Source: Streptomyces sp. CCM_MD2014
Lineage (GTDB): Bacteria; Actinomycetota; Actinomycetes; Streptomycetales; Streptomycetaceae
Reading direction: 5' to 3'
Length of the DNA stretch: 64,000 nt
Assembly (NCBI RefSeq): GCF_000772045.1
Contig: NZ_CP009754.1
Span: 8,122,001-8,186,000, forward strand
Below the pieces are notes generated by a model. The model saw only the letters and a program-made list of their open reading frames with translations, was not told the DNA's origin and did not search any database. The position numbers and the translations under genes were made by a program. This document shows, in pieces, positions 52,271 through 60,127 of this stretch (the stretch's first letter is position 1; every line of letters begins with the position of its first letter).

Positions 52271-54265
52271 TCAGCCGGCCGGATCGGCTCGGAAGGCGAT
52301 CAGGGCGATGTCGTCGCGGTTGTCGGAGAGGCTTTTCTGCAGGGAGACCAGAAGTCCGGACAGCTCCTCGTCCCGCTGTCGCGCGGCCGCGGTCAGAAGT
52401 CTGTGCTGGCCCTCGTCGAGGGAGGAGGTGGGGGTCTCGATGAGGCCGTCGGTGTAGAGCAGGAGGGTGTCCCCGGGGGCCATGGTGTGGGCGTGGCAGG
52501 TACGCGGGAGGCCGGGGTCGACGCACAGCGGGGGATCCTCGTCGGTGCCGGTGAGGAAGTAGGGCTCAGCCTTGGCGGGGACCAGCAGTGGCGGCGGATG
52601 CCCGGCGTTGGCCCAGGTCATGCGCCAGGTGCCGTCGGACAGACGTTGCAGGCGGGCGTGGATGGCCGTGGCGAAGGAAGCGATGTCCAGCCCCTCGGCG
52701 GCGTTCTCCAGCATGGTCAGGACGGCCGAGGGCCGGCAGTCCGGACCGTTGTTCCAAGCCAGGCCCCGGAGCATGCTCCGCAGCTGTCCCATGGCGGTGG
52801 CGGCCGTGAGGTCGTGCCCGGCGACGTCGCCGATGTCGAGAACGAGGGTGCCGTCGGTGTGGACGACGGCGTCGTACCAGTCGCCACCGATCTCGTTCGC
52901 CGAGCTGGCCGGCTCGTAGCAGGCGGCCAGACTCGCGCCGGAAACGGCCGGCGGGCTGGTGAGATGAGCATGCTGGAGGCGCAGGGCGGTGCGGCGTGCC
53001 CGCTGGAGATCAAGCGCCTTGCGCAGGGGCCGCTCCGCGAACTGGAAGATCCTCTGCAGTCGCTCGGTGTCGGCCGGACCGGGAGCGGGGGAGTCCCCGT
53101 TGGCGCTGATCACGGCGTAGCCGAGGACGATGTCTTCGGCCACCAGCGGATACAGGGTCACGCTGGTGGCGTTCGCAGTTCTGAGCCATTGCTCCGTGAC
53201 CGCCGGGACGACGCCTGGCGGCACGCCTTCGCCCGCCGGCAGACGGAAGGTGCGCGGGGTGCGTCGCTCCAGCATGTCCCGAACCGTGTCACCGACGACG
53301 ACCGTCTGGTCCCGCAGCGGAGGCCGGGCCGGCAGGCCGTGACGGGTCGAGGAAGCGGCCCGTCTGGCCGTGACGGGTACGTGCTCGGGCAGCGGCCACT
53401 CCTCCTGGGTCAGCAGCATGATCACGCAAGCGTCGGCGAGGTCCGGAACGATCGCCTTCACCACGGCCGCGAAGGACTCGTCCAGCCCCCCACCGGACAC
53501 CTGCGCGATCTGCGCGAGAAGGCGTTCGCGCAGCGCGGCGTTCCAGGTGTCCTCGACGTCGTCGGTCGCGGCGATCCATTCCTCGGCGCGGCCGTTGCGC
53601 AGGATGGGCACACACCGGGACCACACATGACGGTACGAGCCGTCGGCGGCGCGCACCCTGAACGTGGTCTCGAACAGACTCGGCGGCTCCCGTTCGAGCG
53701 CGGCACGCCAGTCCCGCCGAAGACGGGCCCGGTCGCGGGGGTGGATGAACGCGGCCCATCGTTCGTCCATCCGGTCGTGCCACGGGCTCCCGGTCAGCTT
53801 CTGCCAGCCGGGGACGAGCTCCTGAGCGGATCCGTCCGCACGCAGCACCCAGACCATCTGGGAGACGGCCGTCACCACCGCCTCGTACCGCTCGAGTGCC
53901 ATCGTCTCGGCCGTGGTGTCCAGCGCGACGACCATCACGCCGTGGCCTTCCGCGAGGGAGACGGGCGTACAGGAGTACACGAAGTACCGGGCCTGTTCCG
54001 GGGCGCCGGGGTCGGGCTCGCGCGTTTCGGGGAGCCGGCGGGGCCGCCCGGTGGCGACCACCTCGTCCAGCACGGTCAGAAACTCCTCCGCGTCCGGTTC
54101 GGCAAACGCCTCCCTCGCGGGCAGTCCGACCGGCCGGGCTCCGAGCAGCCTTGCACACGCGGCGTTCTGGTAGACCAGCCGGTGTTCGGAGCCCGCGAAC
54201 AGCGCGATCGCCGCCACCGTCTCGTCGAAGAGCCTCACGTCGAGGGCTCTCACCGAGCCCGTCAC
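52271..54265 (-). CDS. PAS/GAF SpoIIE-type protein phosphatase
   Basis: 664 residues from GTG 54265. Two PAS domains (about 5-115 and 125-245), a GAF-like domain (about 255-425), and a PP2C-type SpoIIE phosphatase (about 440-664: LAACYEPASSANEIGGDWYDAV, LVLDIGDVAGHDLTAATAMGQLR, LLLYTDGLIE, DDIALIAFR; metal-binding Asp residues in GDWYD, GDVAGH and DNRDDIA). Such proteins dephosphorylate anti-sigma antagonists in response to signals. No anti-sigma or antagonist gene is adjacent and no HATPase domain is attached. Confidence 0.9.
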   Translation of the reverse strand: MTGSVRALDVRLFDETVAAIALFAGSEHRLVYQNAACARLLGARPVGLPAREAFAEPDAEEFLTVLDEVVATGRPRRLPETREPDPGAPEQARYFVYSCTPVSLAEGHGVMVVALDTTAETMALERYEAVVTAVSQMVWVLRADGSAQELVPGWQKLTGSPWHDRMDERWAAFIHPRDRARLRRDWRAALEREPPSLFETTFRVRAADGSYRHVWSRCVPILRNGRAEEWIAATDDVEDTWNAALRERLLAQIAQVSGGGLDESFAAVVKAIVPDLADACVIMLLTQEEWPLPEHVPVTARRAASSTRHGLPARPPLRDQTVVVGDTVRDMLERRTPRTFRLPAGEGVPPGVVPAVTEQWLRTANATSVTLYPLVAEDIVLGYAVISANGDSPAPGPADTERLQRIFQFAERPLRKALDLQRARRTALRLQHAHLTSPPAVSGASLAACYEPASSANEIGGDWYDAVVHTDGTLVLDIGDVAGHDLTAATAMGQLRSMLRGLAWNNGPDCRPSAVLTMLENAAEGLDIASFATAIHARLQRLSDGTWRMTWANAGHPPPLLVPAKAEPYFLTGTDEDPPLCVDPGLPRTCHAHTMAPGDTLLLYTDGLIETPTSSLDEGQHRLLTAAARQRDEELSGLLVSLQKSLSDNRDDIALIAFRADPAG

Positions 54266-54559
54266 CGGCCCGCGCCGTGCGCCCGCCAGACTCGCGGCAG
54301 ACCGGGAGTCCGCCGGAGCAGGGTCGCCACCTCGGACTCCCCTTCCACGACCGGCCGTCGGGGCCACCCTTCGGCACGCGCGGACTCCGAAGGCCGAACC
54401 CGCGGGGACCGCGCCGTCACCCGGTCCCACCGGACCCGCTCGGCACCCCTGCGCTTCTCTGCGGCCATGAAACCATCCAATGAGACCCCACCGAGTCCCG
54501 CGCGCGGCCGTACGCCAAACGGGGCCGACGGTCCCGGCATCCCGCGAGGGCCAGCAGCG

Positions 54560-54690
54560 GCCGACCGAAAGGCCGCCGCGCCCGCTGAGCCGGACTTCCC
54601 GGTGCCGTTCGGGCCGGGAAGCCGGTCACCTCGCCGGGGCGCACACTGCAGCTCAGATCGTCTACGGCCAGAACCTCGCCCTGGCGGGCG
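54560..54690 (-). pseudogene. ABC transporter ATPase N-terminal remnant
   Basis: GEVLAVDDLSCSVRPGEVTGF (minus strand, from about 54680) is the start of an ABC ATPase. The Walker A GPNGTGKS follows only if the frame is shifted by one base near 54617, where the codon expected to be Leu-Gly is short by one nucleotide. After the P-loop the homology fades (GSAGAAAFR), with no signature or Walker B. Dead gene. 54266-54824 otherwise holds nothing I can support. Confidence 0.7.
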
Positions 54691-54824
54691 CGCCGTCGCT
54701 CGGCGAGGGCACTCCCGGAAGCATGGCCGTCTGCACGGTCCTCCGCCGTGGCCGCCCAGGCCCACGGCCCGACGACGCCCACGGGAAGCGGCACGAGCAC
54801 GGCAGGTTCTGATCGCGCCGCCTG

Positions 54825-56060
54825 CTACGAGGCGGCGTCGGCCCACAGGCCGGTGCTGTGGGCCTCGACGAGGGTGCTGATGCGGTTCACGACCTCACCG
54901 GCCGGCCGCGGATCGAGTCGGCGTCCGTCACGCAGGCGCAGTGCGACGTGATCGCCGGCGGCCTCCTTGGCGCCGATGACCGCTTGGTAGGGAACCAGGC
55001 GGAACTCTCGGACACGGGCACCCAGGCTCCCTCGGTCCGGCCCCACGATGCGGGCTCTCAGTCCCAGTCGGGTGCAGCGTCGGACGAGGGCGGCGGCGTT
55101 CGGCAGTTCGGTGTCGGAGATCGGGAGGATCACCAGTTGGGTCGGGGCGAGCCAGGGTGGGAAGGCCCCGCCGTGCTGTTCGACGAGGTGGGCGACGGCT
55201 CGCTCCACACTGCCGATGATGCTGCGGTGGACCATGACCGGCCGGTGCTTGGCGCCGTCCCCGCCGGTGTAGTGCAGGTCGAACTGCTCGGGCTGGTGGA
55301 AGTCGACCTGGACGGTGGACAGGGTGGATTCCCGGCCGGCGCCGTCGGTGACCTGGACATCGATCTTGGGGCCGTAGAACGCGGCCTCTGCCTCGGCGGC
55401 CTCGTAGGGCAGACCGGAGCGGTCGAGGACATCGGTCAGCAGGGCGGTGGACCGCTGCCACTTCTCAGGCGCGGCCACGTACTTGCCGCCAGGGCCCGGG
55501 AGGGAGAGCCGGTAGCGAGTGGCGGTGATGCCGAGCGCCTCGTACGCCTGGCGGATCATCTCCAGTGCCGCCCGGGCCTCCTCGGCGACCTGGTCCAGGG
55601 TGCAGAAGATGTGCGCGTCATTGAGCTGGATGGCCCTCACCCGGGTCAGTCCGCCGAGCACGCCGGAGAGTTCGGAGCGGTACATGCCGCCCAGTTCGGC
55701 CATGCGCAGGGGCAGTTCGCGGTAGCTGTGGGGGCGGGAGCGGTAGATCACCGCGTGGTGGGGGCACAGGCTGGGCCGAAGGACGACCTGCTCCCCGCCG
55801 AGGTCCATCGGCGGGAACATGTCGTCCCTGTAGTGCGCCCAGTGCCCGGAGATCTCGTACAGTTCCCGCTTGCCGAGGACAGGTGAGTACACGTGCTGGT
55901 AGCCCGCCCGCCGCTCGGCGGCACGGATGTACTCCTCCAGGGTGTGCCTCACGGCCGCGCCGTCGGGCAGCCAGTACGGCAGGCCCGCGCCGATCAGCGG
56001 ATCGGTGTCGAACAGGCCCAGTTCACGGCCGAGCCTGCGGTGGTCGTGCGCGGTGGTCAT
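54825..56060 (-). CDS. thrS: Short threonyl-tRNA synthetase lacking N-terminal domains
   Basis: 411 residues, about 240 fewer than full ThrRS: the TGS and editing (SAD) domains are absent. The class II catalytic domain (about 25-300) keeps the zinc ligands C99 (SLCPHH), H150 (NDAHIFC) and H278 (VMVHRSIIGS) and motif 2 (RMAELGGMYRSELSG); the anticodon-binding domain is about 305-405. It should charge tRNA-Thr but lacks the domain that removes Ser. GAGGAG precedes ATG 56060. A Thr-codon leader and hairpin upstream indicate attenuation. It is probably a second ThrRS beside a full-length one elsewhere. Confidence 0.9.
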   Translation of the reverse strand: MTTAHDHRRLGRELGLFDTDPLIGAGLPYWLPDGAAVRHTLEEYIRAAERRAGYQHVYSPVLGKRELYEISGHWAHYRDDMFPPMDLGGEQVVLRPSLCPHHAVIYRSRPHSYRELPLRMAELGGMYRSELSGVLGGLTRVRAIQLNDAHIFCTLDQVAEEARAALEMIRQAYEALGITATRYRLSLPGPGGKYVAAPEKWQRSTALLTDVLDRSGLPYEAAEAEAAFYGPKIDVQVTDGAGRESTLSTVQVDFHQPEQFDLHYTGGDGAKHRPVMVHRSIIGSVERAVAHLVEQHGGAFPPWLAPTQLVILPISDTELPNAAALVRRCTRLGLRARIVGPDRGSLGARVREFRLVPYQAVIGAKEAAGDHVALRLRDGRRLDPRPAGEVVNRISTLVEAHSTGLWADAAS

Positions 56061-56105
56061 CGCGGTCTCCTCGCTGGTTGCGGGGCAAGTGACCGGGCCT
56101 GCGGC

Positions 56106-56136
56106 GAAGCCCCGGGGCACTCGGCCCCGGGGCTTC
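56106..56136 (-). terminator. Attenuator hairpin in the thrS leader
   Basis: Perfect 13-bp stem (GAAGCCCCGGGGC with its complement), 5-nt loop, beginning 10 bases after the leader stop codon and ending 45 bases before the thrS ATG. Its 5' arm (56130-56124) can alternatively pair with GUCCCGG (56161-56155) inside the leader frame. Confidence 0.8.
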
Positions 56137-56146
56137 AGGTCGTCCG

Positions 56147-56197
56147 TCAGCGCGCCGGGACACTCTCCGGCGTCGTCGTCATGGCAGCGCGCTTCAT
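56147..56197 (-). CDS. Threonine-rich leader peptide of thrS
   Basis: Sixteen codons, MKRAAMTTTPESVPAR, with three consecutive ACG threonine codons (56179-56171). TAACGT lies seven bases before its ATG and would make the transcript leaderless. Immediately after the Thr codons CGCCGG (56172-56167) can pair with CCGGCG (56158-56153); a stalled ribosome would block that pairing and free the segment that opens the terminator. Arrangement seen in sequence; function inferred. Confidence 0.7.
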   Translation of the reverse strand: MKRAAMTTTPESVPAR

Positions 56198-56325
56198 GCC
56201 GCGGACGTTAGCAGGATGCAGCGACGACCACACGTTCATTACGCGTCAGGAATGCCGGCCCTCGGGTGGCCCCCTGTCCGACTACGCCGCCCGTGCGTGA
56301 CCTGCGGAGGCCGCCGGGCGGTGTC

Positions 56326-57747
56326 TCAGTTGTCCACCCCGGCTTCCCACTTGCGCCGACGCAGCACGTGGTCGCTGAAGAGGTGCCGGCACCGGTCGAG
56401 CAGTTCGCCCACCTCCGAGTCCCCGCGTCGCTCGTCCGGTGACGCATGCCAGCGCTGTACGGATTGCGCGGCCCAGGTGCGCAGCTTCACATCCGGATCC
56501 TCCAGCAGACCGACCGCAGCCCGCAGTGCCGCGACGCCTCCACGTGCGTCGAGGAGGCGGAACGCGCCGACGCGGACGTGCCGCGGCCGCTCGCAGCCGA
56601 TGCGCTCCAGCAGCCAGTCGGCGGGCAGCTCCTCGGCCGTGGGCAGCAACGCGGCGGCGGTCTCGCGGACGACCCCGGCGGCAGGGTCGTCGAGGAGCGG
56701 CCGCAACCGCTTCGCATCCACGCGGTCCAGCGCCCGCAGCCCTGCCACCGCCCGTGCCCGCACCCCGGCCGACGGGTGCGCGAGCAGCGGCCGCAGCAGC
56801 CCGGCGTCCGAGCGGTTTCCGCACTCGGCGAGCCCGATGACCGCACCGGGCGGCAACTCGCGGTCGTCCGCCGCCGCGCACCGCCCGCGGTACCAGGCCG
56901 CCGGGTCACCACCCTGTTGCCGTACGACATAACGGGCGCAAGCACGCACGAGCGCGGAACGGTCGGTGAGAAACGGCTCCGCCCGCGGGGACCGCTCTGC
57001 CCGTCTCAGCGCGGTGACGCCGGCCGAACGGACGCGTGGGTTGCGGGCGGACAGCAGTGGAGTCAGTACGCGCTCGTGGTCATCCTCGTCTGCCAGTGCC
57101 GTGAGCGCCGCTGTGGCGCACAGGTCCTGCACCACGGTGTCCTCGTCCCGGGCGGCAGCGCGGGCCAGTTCGGCGGGGCGGAGCAGCCGGCCCTCTACGG
57201 CCAGCCGGTAGGCGAACCGGCGGACGGTACGGTCGGGATCAGTGAAGAGTGCGGCGAGCCGGCCGTGGGAGGCCTGACGCAGAGTGCGGCCGAGCGCGTC
57301 GACGCCGAAGGCGCCTCTGTCGCGGCTGCCGACGCGGAGGATGAGCGGTGCGAGGCCGAGGGCGGAGTCCGCGTTCAGGGCTTCGCTCAGCAGACGCCGG
57401 GCGTCCTCGCGTACCGGCTCGGCCCAGTCGGTGCAGCGGATCACGACCAACGGCAGCAGGCCGGGGTGTCGCAAGGACTGGCGCAGAGCTTCCTGACGTA
57501 TCCGCCCGTCGCGGTGGCAGAGGGCGAGGGCGAGCCGGGACTCGTCGAGCCGAGTGAGGTCGGCGGAGGGCGGGCCGGAGTGCCACCATGCCGGCAGGAG
57601 CCGGGGACGGCACCAGGCCGCCTCGCGTACTGCCGCGTCCAGCGCGAGCCAGTCACCGGGATCGGTGACGTCGAGCGCGCTGTGCAGCGGTACACCTCCC
57701 GCGAGCCGCGACGCTGCCTGTGCCCAGTCCTCGATGTCCCCGAGCAT
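56326..57747 (-). CDS. HEAT-repeat protein
   Basis: 473 residues built of repeated helical pairs of about 31-36 residues, e.g. RNPRVRSAGVTALRRAE, HPSAGVRARAVAGLRALDRVDAKRLRPLLDDPAAGVVRETAAALLP, and DPDVKLRTWAAQSVQRW, typical of HEAT/PBS-lyase-like repeats. No signal peptide. It is likely a protein-protein scaffold; partner unknown. Reads in the same direction as the serpin gene 39 bases upstream, so the two may be co-transcribed. Confidence 0.85.
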   Translation of the reverse strand: MLGDIEDWAQAASRLAGGVPLHSALDVTDPGDWLALDAAVREAAWCRPRLLPAWWHSGPPSADLTRLDESRLALALCHRDGRIRQEALRQSLRHPGLLPLVVIRCTDWAEPVREDARRLLSEALNADSALGLAPLILRVGSRDRGAFGVDALGRTLRQASHGRLAALFTDPDRTVRRFAYRLAVEGRLLRPAELARAAARDEDTVVQDLCATAALTALADEDDHERVLTPLLSARNPRVRSAGVTALRRAERSPRAEPFLTDRSALVRACARYVVRQQGGDPAAWYRGRCAAADDRELPPGAVIGLAECGNRSDAGLLRPLLAHPSAGVRARAVAGLRALDRVDAKRLRPLLDDPAAGVVRETAAALLPTAEELPADWLLERIGCERPRHVRVGAFRLLDARGGVAALRAAVGLLEDPDVKLRTWAAQSVQRWHASPDERRGDSEVGELLDRCRHLFSDHVLRRRKWEAGVDN

Positions 57748-57786
57748 GTGTCCGCCCCTCCGGCAGTGGTACTGGCGATCGCAGGA

Positions 57787-58971
57787 TCAGCAGTCTTCCT
57801 CGAACGTGTCAGGGCTGGTGACCCAACCCGCGTTGAGGACGAGTCGGGAAGCGCCGTGCAGTGCGAGGAACCCGAAGGGACGGTCGAAGCGGACGCTGAC
57901 CTCGCGGGCTCGGAACGGGTGGCGGGGCATGCCCGCGGCTCTCATGCCGAAGCCGGTGACGGCCGCGGAGCGGAAGCCGCGTGCGCCGAACGTCGCCGTC
58001 GCCGTCTGCGCGGCGGCCTGGACGGCGAGTGGCTTGGCACTGATGCCGGGAAAGTGGCCTCGCGAGGCGTCCGTCGCCGTGCGCAGCCCGAACAGGCCGG
58101 GGTCGCCGAGCAGGTCGTGATGGGCTGTGACGGTGAACGGCACGGTGGATACGTGGAGCGTGGGTTCGCCGTCGACGCTGGGAACGCGGGTCACGGACAG
58201 ACCGGGGCCCGGGGCGCCGTACGGGAGTCGGCTGCCGGGGACCATGGCCCGGCGGTTGTGGAGTGCGTCCACGGCGGCAGTCAGTACCTGGCCCGCGGCT
58301 GCTTCGGGTGGTCCGAGGTACAGGTGGACGTCGACGCCCTGGGTGCCGATGATCCGGAGTTCGGTCAGGGGGCCGGCTGTCGTGTCCGCGACGCCGACCC
58401 GGTTCAGGAGACTGGTGGTGCGGTGCAGGGCGGCCAGGTCCATGCCGCGCCAGGGTCCTGTTTCGGCTGCCATCGCGCCCGGAGTGAAGGGCCGGATCCA
58501 GTCGGTGCGGAGGGTCAGGGCGCCGGCCAGCACCAGCAGGGTCTCTTCGTCCACGGTGACCGGCATCGCCTCGATCTGTCCTCGGGTGCATTGGGCTGCC
58601 CAGGTGTCGAGGCGCGACTGGTCGCTGTGGGGGTCACCGGTGAGCTGCCCGTGCACGTCGGCGGGCAGCCGGTCCAGCCAGGCCGGTTCGACGGGCAGGG
58701 TGCTGCGGGTCCACAGTCCCAGGGCCGCGCCCAGGCCGCGCGTCGCCCTGAGCATGGAGAGCAGATCTCGCGCTGCCGTCGAGGCGTCGGCCGCCGGCAT
58801 GCCGAGTGCGTCCGACAGTTCCTGCCGGGCGGGACCTGCGGCACCGTCGGCGAGAAGGCCGAGCAACGGCCATACCCCGGCTGCGGCGAGCACTGTGCCG
58901 TCGTGGGGCAGGGCCGCGGCCCAGCGCGAGGTCAGTCCGTTGATGGCTCTGACTGTGCCGTGACTGGCCAT
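57787..58971 (-). CDS. Serpin-family protein
   Basis: 394 residues from ATG 58971 (GGAAGGGCAGG upstream); no signal peptide. N-terminal segment DGTVLAAAGVWPLLGLLADGAAGPARQELSDALG, hinge-like VQAAAQTATATFGARGF preceding the reactive loop, and the serpin signature as FDRPFGFLALH. Bacterial serpins may inhibit serine proteases, but the hinge region is Ala/Thr-rich with A-T-A-T spacing, so inhibitory capacity is plausible but unproven. A cytoplasmic location is unusual for a protease inhibitor. Confidence 0.85.
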   Translation of the reverse strand: MASHGTVRAINGLTSRWAAALPHDGTVLAAAGVWPLLGLLADGAAGPARQELSDALGMPAADASTAARDLLSMLRATRGLGAALGLWTRSTLPVEPAWLDRLPADVHGQLTGDPHSDQSRLDTWAAQCTRGQIEAMPVTVDEETLLVLAGALTLRTDWIRPFTPGAMAAETGPWRGMDLAALHRTTSLLNRVGVADTTAGPLTELRIIGTQGVDVHLYLGPPEAAAGQVLTAAVDALHNRRAMVPGSRLPYGAPGPGLSVTRVPSVDGEPTLHVSTVPFTVTAHHDLLGDPGLFGLRTATDASRGHFPGISAKPLAVQAAAQTATATFGARGFRSAAVTGFGMRAAGMPRHPFRAREVSVRFDRPFGFLALHGASRLVLNAGWVTSPDTFEEDC

Positions 58972-59227
58972 GCCTGCCCTTCCGATGCTCCCGATCCTCG
59001 GGACAGTAGAGCCGAAAGCGCCTGACTGGCGAGCGAATTCGACGTCGACGTCACTGACGAAGCGCCACTGACTGAGGAAGCGCCACTGGCGGGGGAGCAC
59101 GTGGCACTACGGCACACCTCGATGCGGTTGCCGTGCCGCGCAAAATCGGTCGACAGGCGCGTCCGTGAACCACTGTGATGGCTACGACTGCCCGCCGCAC
59201 GGGGCGGGCCGGACAAGGGAGTTGTCC

Positions 59228-60127
59228 TTGGCGGCTGTTCGAACCGCGGACACACGCCCTCAGATCGATGAGGCGCTGGTCAGGCGCCTGGTCGACACTC
59301 AGTTCCCGCAGTGGGCGGGGCTGGCCCTGAGGCCGTTCAGCCCCGCCGGCTCCGATCACGTGATCTACCGGTTGGGTGAGGAGCTGGCCGTGCGGCTCCC
59401 GCGCCATCCGGGAGCCGTCGGACAGGCCGGGAAGGAACTCCAGTGGCTGCCACGACTCGCCCCGCACCTCCCGCTGGCCATCCCGGTACCAGTGGGAGTG
59501 GGCGGCCCCGGCTTCGGCTATCCGTGGCCGTGGGGGGTGTCCCGGTGGCTGGACGGCGAGGTGGCGAGCGTTGACACACTGGGGGACTCCACCGAGGCGG
59601 CCGTCGAACTGGCCCATTTCCTGGCCGCCTTGCAGCGGTTCGCACCCGACCACACCCCCGCCGGGCACACCACGGAAGCCCTCGCCGGCCACCCGTTGTC
59701 CGACCGGGACCGCGAGACGCGGATCGCCATCGCCAAGGCACACGGCGTGTTCGACACCACGGCGATGACGGAACTGTGGAACGCGGCACTGAACGCGCCC
59801 GGATGGGACCGCTCCCCGGTGTGGTTCCACGGCGACTTCCACACCGGCAACCTGCTGACCTCCGACGGCTGTCTGAGCGCCGTCATCGACTTCGGCGGGC
59901 TCGGAACGGGCGACCCGGCCTGCGACCTGACCATCGCCTTCACCCTGATGTCGGCAAACAGCCGAGCCGCCTTCCGCGAGGCACTCGGCGTGGACGACGC
60001 CACCTGGCTGCGGGGACGCGGCTGGGCCCTGGCCACCGGCCTGAACGCCTACACCTCCTACGCCGCGGTCAGCCCCCGGGTCGCCGCGCAGACGACCCGG
60101 CAGATCACCCAGGCCCTCGTCGGCTGA
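59228..60127 (+). CDS. Aminoglycoside phosphotransferase family protein
   Basis: 299 residues from TTG 59228, six bases after AAGGGAG; GTG 59165 would add 21 residues of non-conserved sequence. Kinase-like fold: catalytic HGDFHTGN with D203 (201-208) and the metal-binding D221 in VIDFGG. This family phosphorylates antibiotics or small metabolites; the C-terminal half resembles the APH(3'')-like aminoglycoside-type group without a close match I can name. Resistance is possible, not shown. Confidence 0.85.
   Translation: MAAVRTADTRPQIDEALVRRLVDTQFPQWAGLALRPFSPAGSDHVIYRLGEELAVRLPRHPGAVGQAGKELQWLPRLAPHLPLAIPVPVGVGGPGFGYPWPWGVSRWLDGEVASVDTLGDSTEAAVELAHFLAALQRFAPDHTPAGHTTEALAGHPLSDRDRETRIAIAKAHGVFDTTAMTELWNAALNAPGWDRSPVWFHGDFHTGNLLTSDGCLSAVIDFGGLGTGDPACDLTIAFTLMSANSRAAFREALGVDDATWLRGRGWALATGLNAYTSYAAVSPRVAAQTTRQITQALVG

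Follow-up and report, generated by a model that had tools for sequence, protein, structure and literature searches.

A putative ribosome-mediated, threonine-codon attenuator in front of an auxiliary thrS gene of Streptomyces

The 64,000-nt stretch of Streptomyces DNA analyzed here, referred to as the window, encodes on its minus strand a short form of threonyl-tRNA synthetase (ThrRS), and the RNA in front of this gene contains a 16-codon leader with three consecutive Thr codons, followed by a hairpin. Based on comparison with several hundred homologous regions, this element is most probably (we put the probability at roughly 85%) a ribosome-mediated, Thr-codon attenuator of the auxiliary thrS. 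A first-pass annotation made from the letters of the window had proposed as much, and the leader, its three ACG codons, a perfect 13-bp hairpin, a 6-bp stem and a competing 7-bp pairing were all confirmed, position by position. The gene, the leader and the promoter element are as follows:

54825-56060, minus strand: short thrS, encoding 411 aa with a class II core and an anticodon-binding domain
56147-56197, minus strand: leader ORF MKRAAMTTTPESVPAR*, 16 codons, from ORF reading and homologue comparison
56171-56179, minus strand: regulatory codons ACG ACG ACG, recognized from the Thr runs of homologous leaders
56205-56210, minus strand: -10 box TAACGT, with 7 nt between it and the leader ATG, from which a leaderless transcript is predicted

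In a profile search the 411-aa product matched TIGR00418 with 428.7 bits (cut-off 383.65) as well as PF00587 and PF03129, and it aligns with residues 241-617 of the 645 residues of 1nyq, its best solved relative, while a domain search found neither a TGS nor an editing domain in it, that is, the N-terminal domains are absent. A second ThrRS, a longer frame that represents the housekeeping enzyme, is encoded elsewhere on the same 8.27-Mb single contig and is 42% identical to the short form. The idea of a zinc-free ThrRS was dismissed, as the Cys and His residues at what we take to be the zinc ligand positions of ThrRS look kept when the alignment with 1nyq is judged by eye. The ThrRSs of loci L021, L022, L072, L217 and L282 seem to be N-terminally extended, the conserved start being preceded by repeated codons for His/Asp/Asn or Lys/Gln. 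At L288 (positions 1-837) the reading frame of thrS contains tandem GGCTTGGCGGGGAGC-like repeats some tens of codons into the gene, and the match of this homologue to the window ThrRS begins only at residue 87. In the window the upstream neighbor (56326-57747) has HEAT repeats, and two genes upstream of thrS lies a serpin-family gene (57787-59100; PF00079, E 2e-18).

Short thrS genes are widespread in the genus, where a protein search gave, among the matches listed, at least 150 of 392 genomes with a homologue at least 72% identical. A named sample contributed 80 loci kept of 447, and in the class 62 of 394 genomes had a match at E 1e-110 or better, which yielded 56 new regions once the window's own locus, four previously read regions and another at the edge of a contig had been set aside. 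The 286 upstream regions read are therefore made up of 30 and 120 from the genus, 80 from the named sample and 56 from the class, with species overlapping between the sets. By a strict rule (a TAnnnT box, a start codon, two or more Thr codons in a row and a stop within 16 codons), a leader is present in 280 of the 286 regions (30/30, 117/120, 78/80 and 55/56 in the respective sets). The first-pass annotation had held that homologues lacking the Thr run or the hairpin would speak against an attenuator of the short thrS; this near-universal retention of the Thr-run leader is instead comparative support for one. Among the regions missed by the rule, L052 and L283 offer just 146 and 101 nt of upstream sequence, L164 and L237 contain a Thr-run frame with no start that satisfies the rule, at L146 a hairpin was found and no leader, and at L071 neither a Thr-run leader nor a hairpin was found. 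A narrower leader pattern missed 12 of 120 loci, and inspection by hand showed that 11 of these do have a frame in which Thr codons stand two or three in a row. The strict-rule matches include 193 distinct leaders; the Thr run is three codons long in 189 of them, and 572 of the 575 codons in these runs are ACG.

Within the class, leaders with a Thr run also occur in five families other than that of the window. Locus L118 (genome G432), from another class of the same phylum, has the window's 26-nt leader core letter for letter, again preceding a short thrS (80%), which suggests horizontal transfer. Taken alone, the fold of the window leader RNA is only mildly unusual (z = -2.32), and short ORFs are common, so the verdict that the element goes beyond chance is decided by the homologues: with 193 distinct leaders conserved before short thrS genes, the notion of a chance ORF next to the ordinary terminator of the upstream gene was ruled out, and we give it virtually no credence.

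The leader belongs to the short thrS rather than to genes in general. Its core pattern (ACGACGACGCCGG-N8-CCGGCG) is found in 188 of 392 genus genomes, at least 7 of which, among the listed rows, match at a chance place only, and the backward control is found in 5. Twelve leader matches outside the listed short thrS genes, chosen from the listed pattern matches and not all that exist, were opened. Nine of them precede a short thrS that is degraded, divergent or cut off, which is the basis for assigning the leader to this gene, and judging from these sequences the short thrS is often broken or lost. The remaining three (L297, L298 and L302) have no recognizable thrS after the leader, and at L302 the contig ends 196 nt further on, past the start of another frame. 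L297 and L298, where leader and hairpin persist with no recognized short thrS, are possible scars of gene loss. At the level of the phylum a DNA pattern for TTTPxxVPA matched 6 of 396 genomes; five matches, the window's included, precede a short thrS, and the sixth (L114), which no thrS follows, matches by chance. These matches, together with the 12 further leaders, rule out that the leader is shared with other genes. A fixed gene neighborhood was also rejected: each ORF family is confined to at most 3 of 81 loci, by an ORF finder that is weak in GC-rich DNA and with two clusters set aside that are mainly thrS in some frame (83 of their 102 members overlap thrS).

What is conserved in the leader is not simply its peptide. 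In 91 distinct leaders, representing 108 loci kept of the 110 in the first two sets, the core ACG ACG ACG CCG GAN NNN GTC CCG GCG CGC TGA is nearly fixed, third positions included, where the search pattern itself fixed positions one and two in most codons and left only third positions and codon 6 free to vary. Almost all variation is at core codons 5 and 6, mostly the loop of stem 1:2 described below. Since third codon positions are nearly fixed, the leader RNA must be under selection beyond the peptide, and because core codons 5 and 6 in addition change the amino acid, a conserved peptide was rejected as the main selected feature. In L289-L291, whose ThrRSs are 52-59% identical to that of the window, the leader keeps TTTP and differs in its C-terminal half. 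In two of these loci, L290 and L291 (52-54% identical), the TTTP leader is followed downstream by a different fold, with CCCACGA...TCGTGGG, in place of the standard hairpin.

Of 243 distinct loci, 241 have a TAnnnT box that precedes a leader start by 6, 7 or 10 nt (by 7 nt in 177 of them), compared with 87 of 1235 control starts elsewhere, and from this spacing the transcript is probably leaderless, beginning at the leader start. A transcription start downstream of 56147, the other finding that according to the first-pass annotation would have told against an attenuator, is unlikely because the -10-like box precedes the leader start. Farther upstream, 32-36 nt from the -10 box, a GAAAWY (WblC-type) box occurs in 94 of 241 distinct loci, as opposed to 0.8% in shuffles, and it is absent from the window. 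The thrS2 gene of S. coelicolor is presumably the short form of thrS. The GAAAWY position fits the place described for WblC, and thrS2 appears among the WblC-activated genes of S. coelicolor in the same report (PMC7157823). The frequency of the box and the WblC activation of thrS2 would both be expected if the leader were an antibiotic-sensing uORF, comparable to uORF attenuation of wblC, in which translation inhibitors that slow leader ribosomes, and not a lack of Thr-tRNA, are the trigger. We regard this as very unlikely, given that no feature of the peptide is better conserved than the Thr run, which is kept even where the leader diverges (L289-L291), and that the window locus lacks the box.

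The leader RNA and the hairpin contain five arms:

56187-56193, minus strand: arm 0 (AGCGCGC), with its partner GCGCGCU at 56155-56149, from the free-RNA fold and the common start ATG[A/C]AGCG[C/T]GC
56167-56172, minus strand: arm 1 (CGCCGG), which pairs with arm 2, overlaps the third Thr codon and does not vary among the 67 aligned sequences
56153-56161, minus strand: arm 2 (GUCCCGGCG), which pairs with arm 1 or arm 3
56124-56136, minus strand: arm 3, the 5' arm of the hairpin (GAAGCCCCGGGGC), of which 56130-56124 is the antiterminator partner, with covariation in 3:4
56106-56118, minus strand: arm 4, the 3' arm of the hairpin (GCCCCGGGGCTTC), terminator-like and with no U-tract

Stem 1:2 consists of 6 bp between CGCCGG (56172-56167) and CCGGCG (56158-56153), stem 2:3 of 7 bp, one of them G-U, between GUCCCGG (56161-56155) and CCGGGGC (56130-56124), and hairpin 3:4 of 13 perfect base pairs that enclose the loop CGAGT (56123-56119), begin 10 nt past the leader stop and can be lengthened at the base by a U-G pair. 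As expected of an attenuator, 1:2, 2:3 and 3:4 are mutually exclusive, and the control codons overlap arm 1, which a ribosome stalled at the Thr codons is predicted to mask.

The hairpin comparison kept 269 of the 286 regions, the rest having no leader match or no 8-bp hairpin, and for the alignment 257 regions were reduced to 79 representatives of less than 88% identity, of which 67 form the aligned rows (L057, L153, L181, L192, L203, L222, L223, L235 and four more were left out). Hairpin 3:4 is the only one of the three stems with covariation: 97.0% of its cells are paired, both sides have changed at 6 of 12 pairs where 1.5 are expected from shuffles, and none of 500 shuffles scored as high on any measure. 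Stems 1:2 and 2:3 pair in 100% and 97.9% of cells, respectively, with no change on both sides, so that covariation says nothing for either, and 2:3 is consistent with the alignment, with no proof from covariation.

When only the 5' arm of the hairpin has emerged, the predicted fold depends on the position of the ribosome. Free RNA forms the arm 0 stem (AGCGCGC/GCGCGCU), a ribosome at the start leaves 1:2, a ribosome stalled at a Thr codon gives 2:3, and with a ribosome at the stop neither 1:2 nor 2:3 is formed. The first-pass annotation had suggested such folding with and without the ribosome, and its antiterminator does appear with a ribosome on the Thr codons; once arm 4 has been made, however, hairpin 3:4, by far the more stable of the two, beats 2:3 in every ribosome state folded, and any antitermination can therefore only be kinetic.

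The hairpin is not filed as a canonical intrinsic terminator of the U-tract type. No U-tract follows it in the window, a terminator scan returned 0 terminator-like sites in 55900-56500, and only 5 of the family's 194 distinct hairpins adjoin a T run of at least four. Terminators lacking U-tracts exist in actinobacteria. In one relative (L161, positions 1-481; genome G103) a similar leader is followed by a hairpin of other sequence and a six-T tract, which is a canonical terminator.

An element of this kind is already in print, although the first-pass annotation knew of no Thr attenuator of thrS described in Streptomyces. The 2021 reannotation of S. lividans TK24 placed thrL (MKRVRPFLETTPGFVPAR, SLIV_19412) upstream of the thrS gene SLIV_19410 and describes it as leaderless and with one hairpin that has no U-rich stretch (PMC8079986). 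The window leader likewise has adjacent Thr codons, ends in VPAR*, precedes a hairpin with no U-rich stretch and lies upstream of thrS, and from the distance of its -10-like box a leaderless start like that of thrL is predicted. At L224 and L234 a peptide identical to MKRVRPFLETTPGFVPAR precedes a short thrS. Adjacent Thr codons number two in thrL (ETTPGF) and three in the window leader (TTTPES), which, given its match to the published element, belongs to the thrL kind but has the longer run. The available text of that account (PMC8079986) has neither the 1:2 and 2:3 arms nor a Shine-Dalgarno hairpin, a pairing of the loop with an anti-Shine-Dalgarno segment or the distribution of the element.

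Other leader elements of the phylum are related in logic. A 2005 survey reported candidate classical attenuators of trpS and leuS in Streptomyces and, in its available text, none for threonine (PMC1262725), which corrects the assumption of the first-pass annotation that synthetase genes of Gram-positive bacteria use T-boxes instead. These candidates resemble the window in having a leader with cognate codons and a terminator/antiterminator arrangement before a synthetase gene, in the same phylum, and differ in that the leuS terminators carry poly-U-tracts. The LEU element of actinobacterial leuA (PMC1262725) also combines a leader peptide with alternative structures that reach the Shine-Dalgarno sequence, but there the run of Leu codons itself pairs with the Shine-Dalgarno sequence. 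The Thr codons of the window are unpaired with 56074-56064 in the predicted folds, and identity with the LEU element was rejected on this ground. A T-box or another Rfam family was also rejected, since 53000-60000 contains no Rfam match at the gathering threshold.

The proposed mechanism, whose trigger and order of folding we infer from these features, is as follows. With ample Thr-tRNA, the ribosome would reach the leader stop codon and cover arm 2, 3:4 would form, and transcription would be stopped or reduced. When Thr-tRNA runs short, whether by starvation or by inhibition of the housekeeping ThrRS, the ribosome would stall on ACG-ACG-ACG and mask arm 1, arm 2 would catch arm 3 before arm 4 has been made, and RNA polymerase would read through into thrS. 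A possible second layer, apparently undescribed for the thrL kind, would involve three segments downstream of or within the hairpin:

56118-56123, minus strand: segment L (CGAGUG), apical, complementary to segment 5, from the alignment and from changes on the ThrRS tree
56085-56094, minus strand: segment 5 (GGUCACUUGC), anti-Shine-Dalgarno, which can pair with L or with segment 6
56064-56074, minus strand: segment 6 (GCGAGGAGACC), the Shine-Dalgarno sequence of thrS, which may be sequestered in a hairpin with segment 5

This possible Shine-Dalgarno hairpin and the complementarity of the loop to the anti-Shine-Dalgarno segment, like the arm 0 stem and the -10 box, go beyond the first-pass annotation.

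The comparative evidence that suggests a Shine-Dalgarno hairpin and an L:5 pairing is mixed. The Shine-Dalgarno sequence is less accessible than its own shuffles in 193 of 238 distinct tails, with a mean unpaired probability of 0.25 versus 0.36 in shuffles, and across 234 loci 5:6 is stronger between own partners (-13.0 kcal/mol) than between swapped ones (-11.6 kcal/mol, sd 0.1). In the 67-row alignment 5:6 pairs in 78.5% of cells, and its covariation is not above shuffles (43, 225 and 29 of 500 were as high for cells paired, both-side pairs and pair types, respectively), to which misalignment near the start codon may contribute. For L:5, 90.0% of cells are paired against 85.4% in shuffles (sd 0.6; 0 of 500 as high), 21 cells have changed on both sides where 7.4 are expected (0 of 500), the covariation score also exceeds all 500 shuffles, and slid versions pair in at most 46% of cells. 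The number of both-side pairs (4 versus 2.7 shuffled; 91 of 500 as high) and of pair types (9 versus 8.9; 322 of 500) is not above shuffles. In the 88 loci with a non-consensus loop, L:5 is again stronger between own partners (-10.0 kcal/mol) than between swapped ones (-8.2 kcal/mol, sd 0.2). On a ThrRS tree of 123 of 139 proteins, L:5 changes were parsed on 101 of the 123 tips, by patterns that admit only some letters per place, so that the counts lean towards pairing. One pair has six changes that all keep pairing, five of them double, c5:p2 stays paired in 18 of 21 changes and c3:p4 in only 5 of 13, and such counts are inflated by shared ancestry. In the window the predicted fold makes L:5 unaided when 2:3 is imposed and the Thr codons are masked, and the Shine-Dalgarno sequence opens only from 0.33 to 0.42 with 2:3 imposed.

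Joining the Shine-Dalgarno hairpin with L:5, we infer a double lock. In the OFF state 1:2 and 3:4 would be formed and, in transcripts that leak past the hairpin, segment 5 may cover the Shine-Dalgarno sequence of thrS; in the ON state 2:3 would open L, which could pair with segment 5, and the Shine-Dalgarno sequence would be freed. Whether thrS has a real translational layer is a question on which we lean slightly towards no. A literature search, with most subscription journals outside its scope, recognized no Shine-Dalgarno lock or loop switch at thrS. The TRAP-regulated trp operon of Bacillus subtilis combines, on one leader RNA, transcription attenuation with blocking of a Shine-Dalgarno sequence; it is sensed by a protein, whereas the window element is proposed to be sensed by the ribosome.

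The attenuator reading also has a narrower form, in which the element acts on transcription alone, as in the trp and his leaders, and the Shine-Dalgarno hairpin and L:5 have no regulatory role. It is a serious contender, if short of an even chance. The four classical arms are sufficient in folds of the emerging RNA, thrL in its available description is a leader peptide and one hairpin only (PMC8079986), and neither the covariation of 5:6 nor two of the five measures for L:5 exceed shuffles. Against it are the three L:5 measures that exceed all 500 shuffles (cells paired, cells changed on both sides and covariation score), the advantage of own over swapped partners for both L:5 and 5:6, the low accessibility of the Shine-Dalgarno sequence in 193 of 238 tails and the L:5 pair for which the tree shows five double changes. 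The opposite view, in which 3:4 does not terminate and all that the leader ribosome controls is the masking of the thrS Shine-Dalgarno sequence by segment 5, would account for the missing U-tract and for the low accessibility, and Actinobacteria do have candidate translational T-boxes and LEU elements with stems that reach the Shine-Dalgarno sequence (PMC1262725). We nevertheless consider purely translational control unlikely, as a conserved, GC-rich hairpin of 13 bp directly after the leader, with 2:3 in competition, has the layout of a terminator, and homologue L161 has a six-T tract after its hairpin.

The benefit of such control may lie in inhibitors of the housekeeping ThrRS. Fourteen positions that contact borrelidin have been named for human ThrRS (PMC4389257). 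In the short family, human M411, Q460 and L567 are replaced by S, L and Q in 123 of 123 sequences, with S at A592 in 120 of 123 and H at Q566 in 123 of 123. The housekeeping ThrRS of the same genome has M, Q, L and A at M411, Q460, L567 and A592 and differs from the human enzyme at H391 (W) and Q566 (N). According to the same paper human L567 corresponds to E. coli L489, a borrelidin resistance site (PMC4389257). Change of Gly463 is described as protecting ObaO (PMC11252418), and this residue is unchanged in the short ThrRS. The natural ThrRS 1nyq has L at the place of Q460 and G at that of A592, and because some of the contact residues are thus seen there as well, inhibitor insensitivity of the short ThrRS is offered tentatively, with the odds a little against it. 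The second TrpRS of S. coelicolor is regulated by attenuation, and Kitabatake in 2002 reportedly described its induction together with indolmycin resistance. As in the reading given here, an auxiliary synthetase whose expression is induced would confer resistance to an inhibitor of the main enzyme; the amino acid is different, and drug insensitivity is the claim of the title there, whereas for the short ThrRS it is suggested. An accessory ThrRS under the proposed attenuator would be switched on exactly when a natural inhibitor blocks the housekeeping enzyme. The full combination, a ribosome-sensed double lock made of a U-less hairpin and a Shine-Dalgarno switch, guarding an inhibitor-insensitive ThrRS and with WblC as a second input in many relatives, is doubtful as a whole.

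The possible Shine-Dalgarno lock, the WblC-type box in 94 of 241 loci and the substitutions at contact positions may be new. If the attenuator reading is true, a spare ThrRS is controlled in a large part of Streptomyces by a direct readout of Thr-tRNA charging, and its leader would exert control on transcription and possibly on translation at once. Such a leader would be a testable model for U-less hairpins in GC-rich actinomycetes, and the search for compounds resembling borrelidin or obafluorin would gain a ready-made sensor of ThrRS inhibition.
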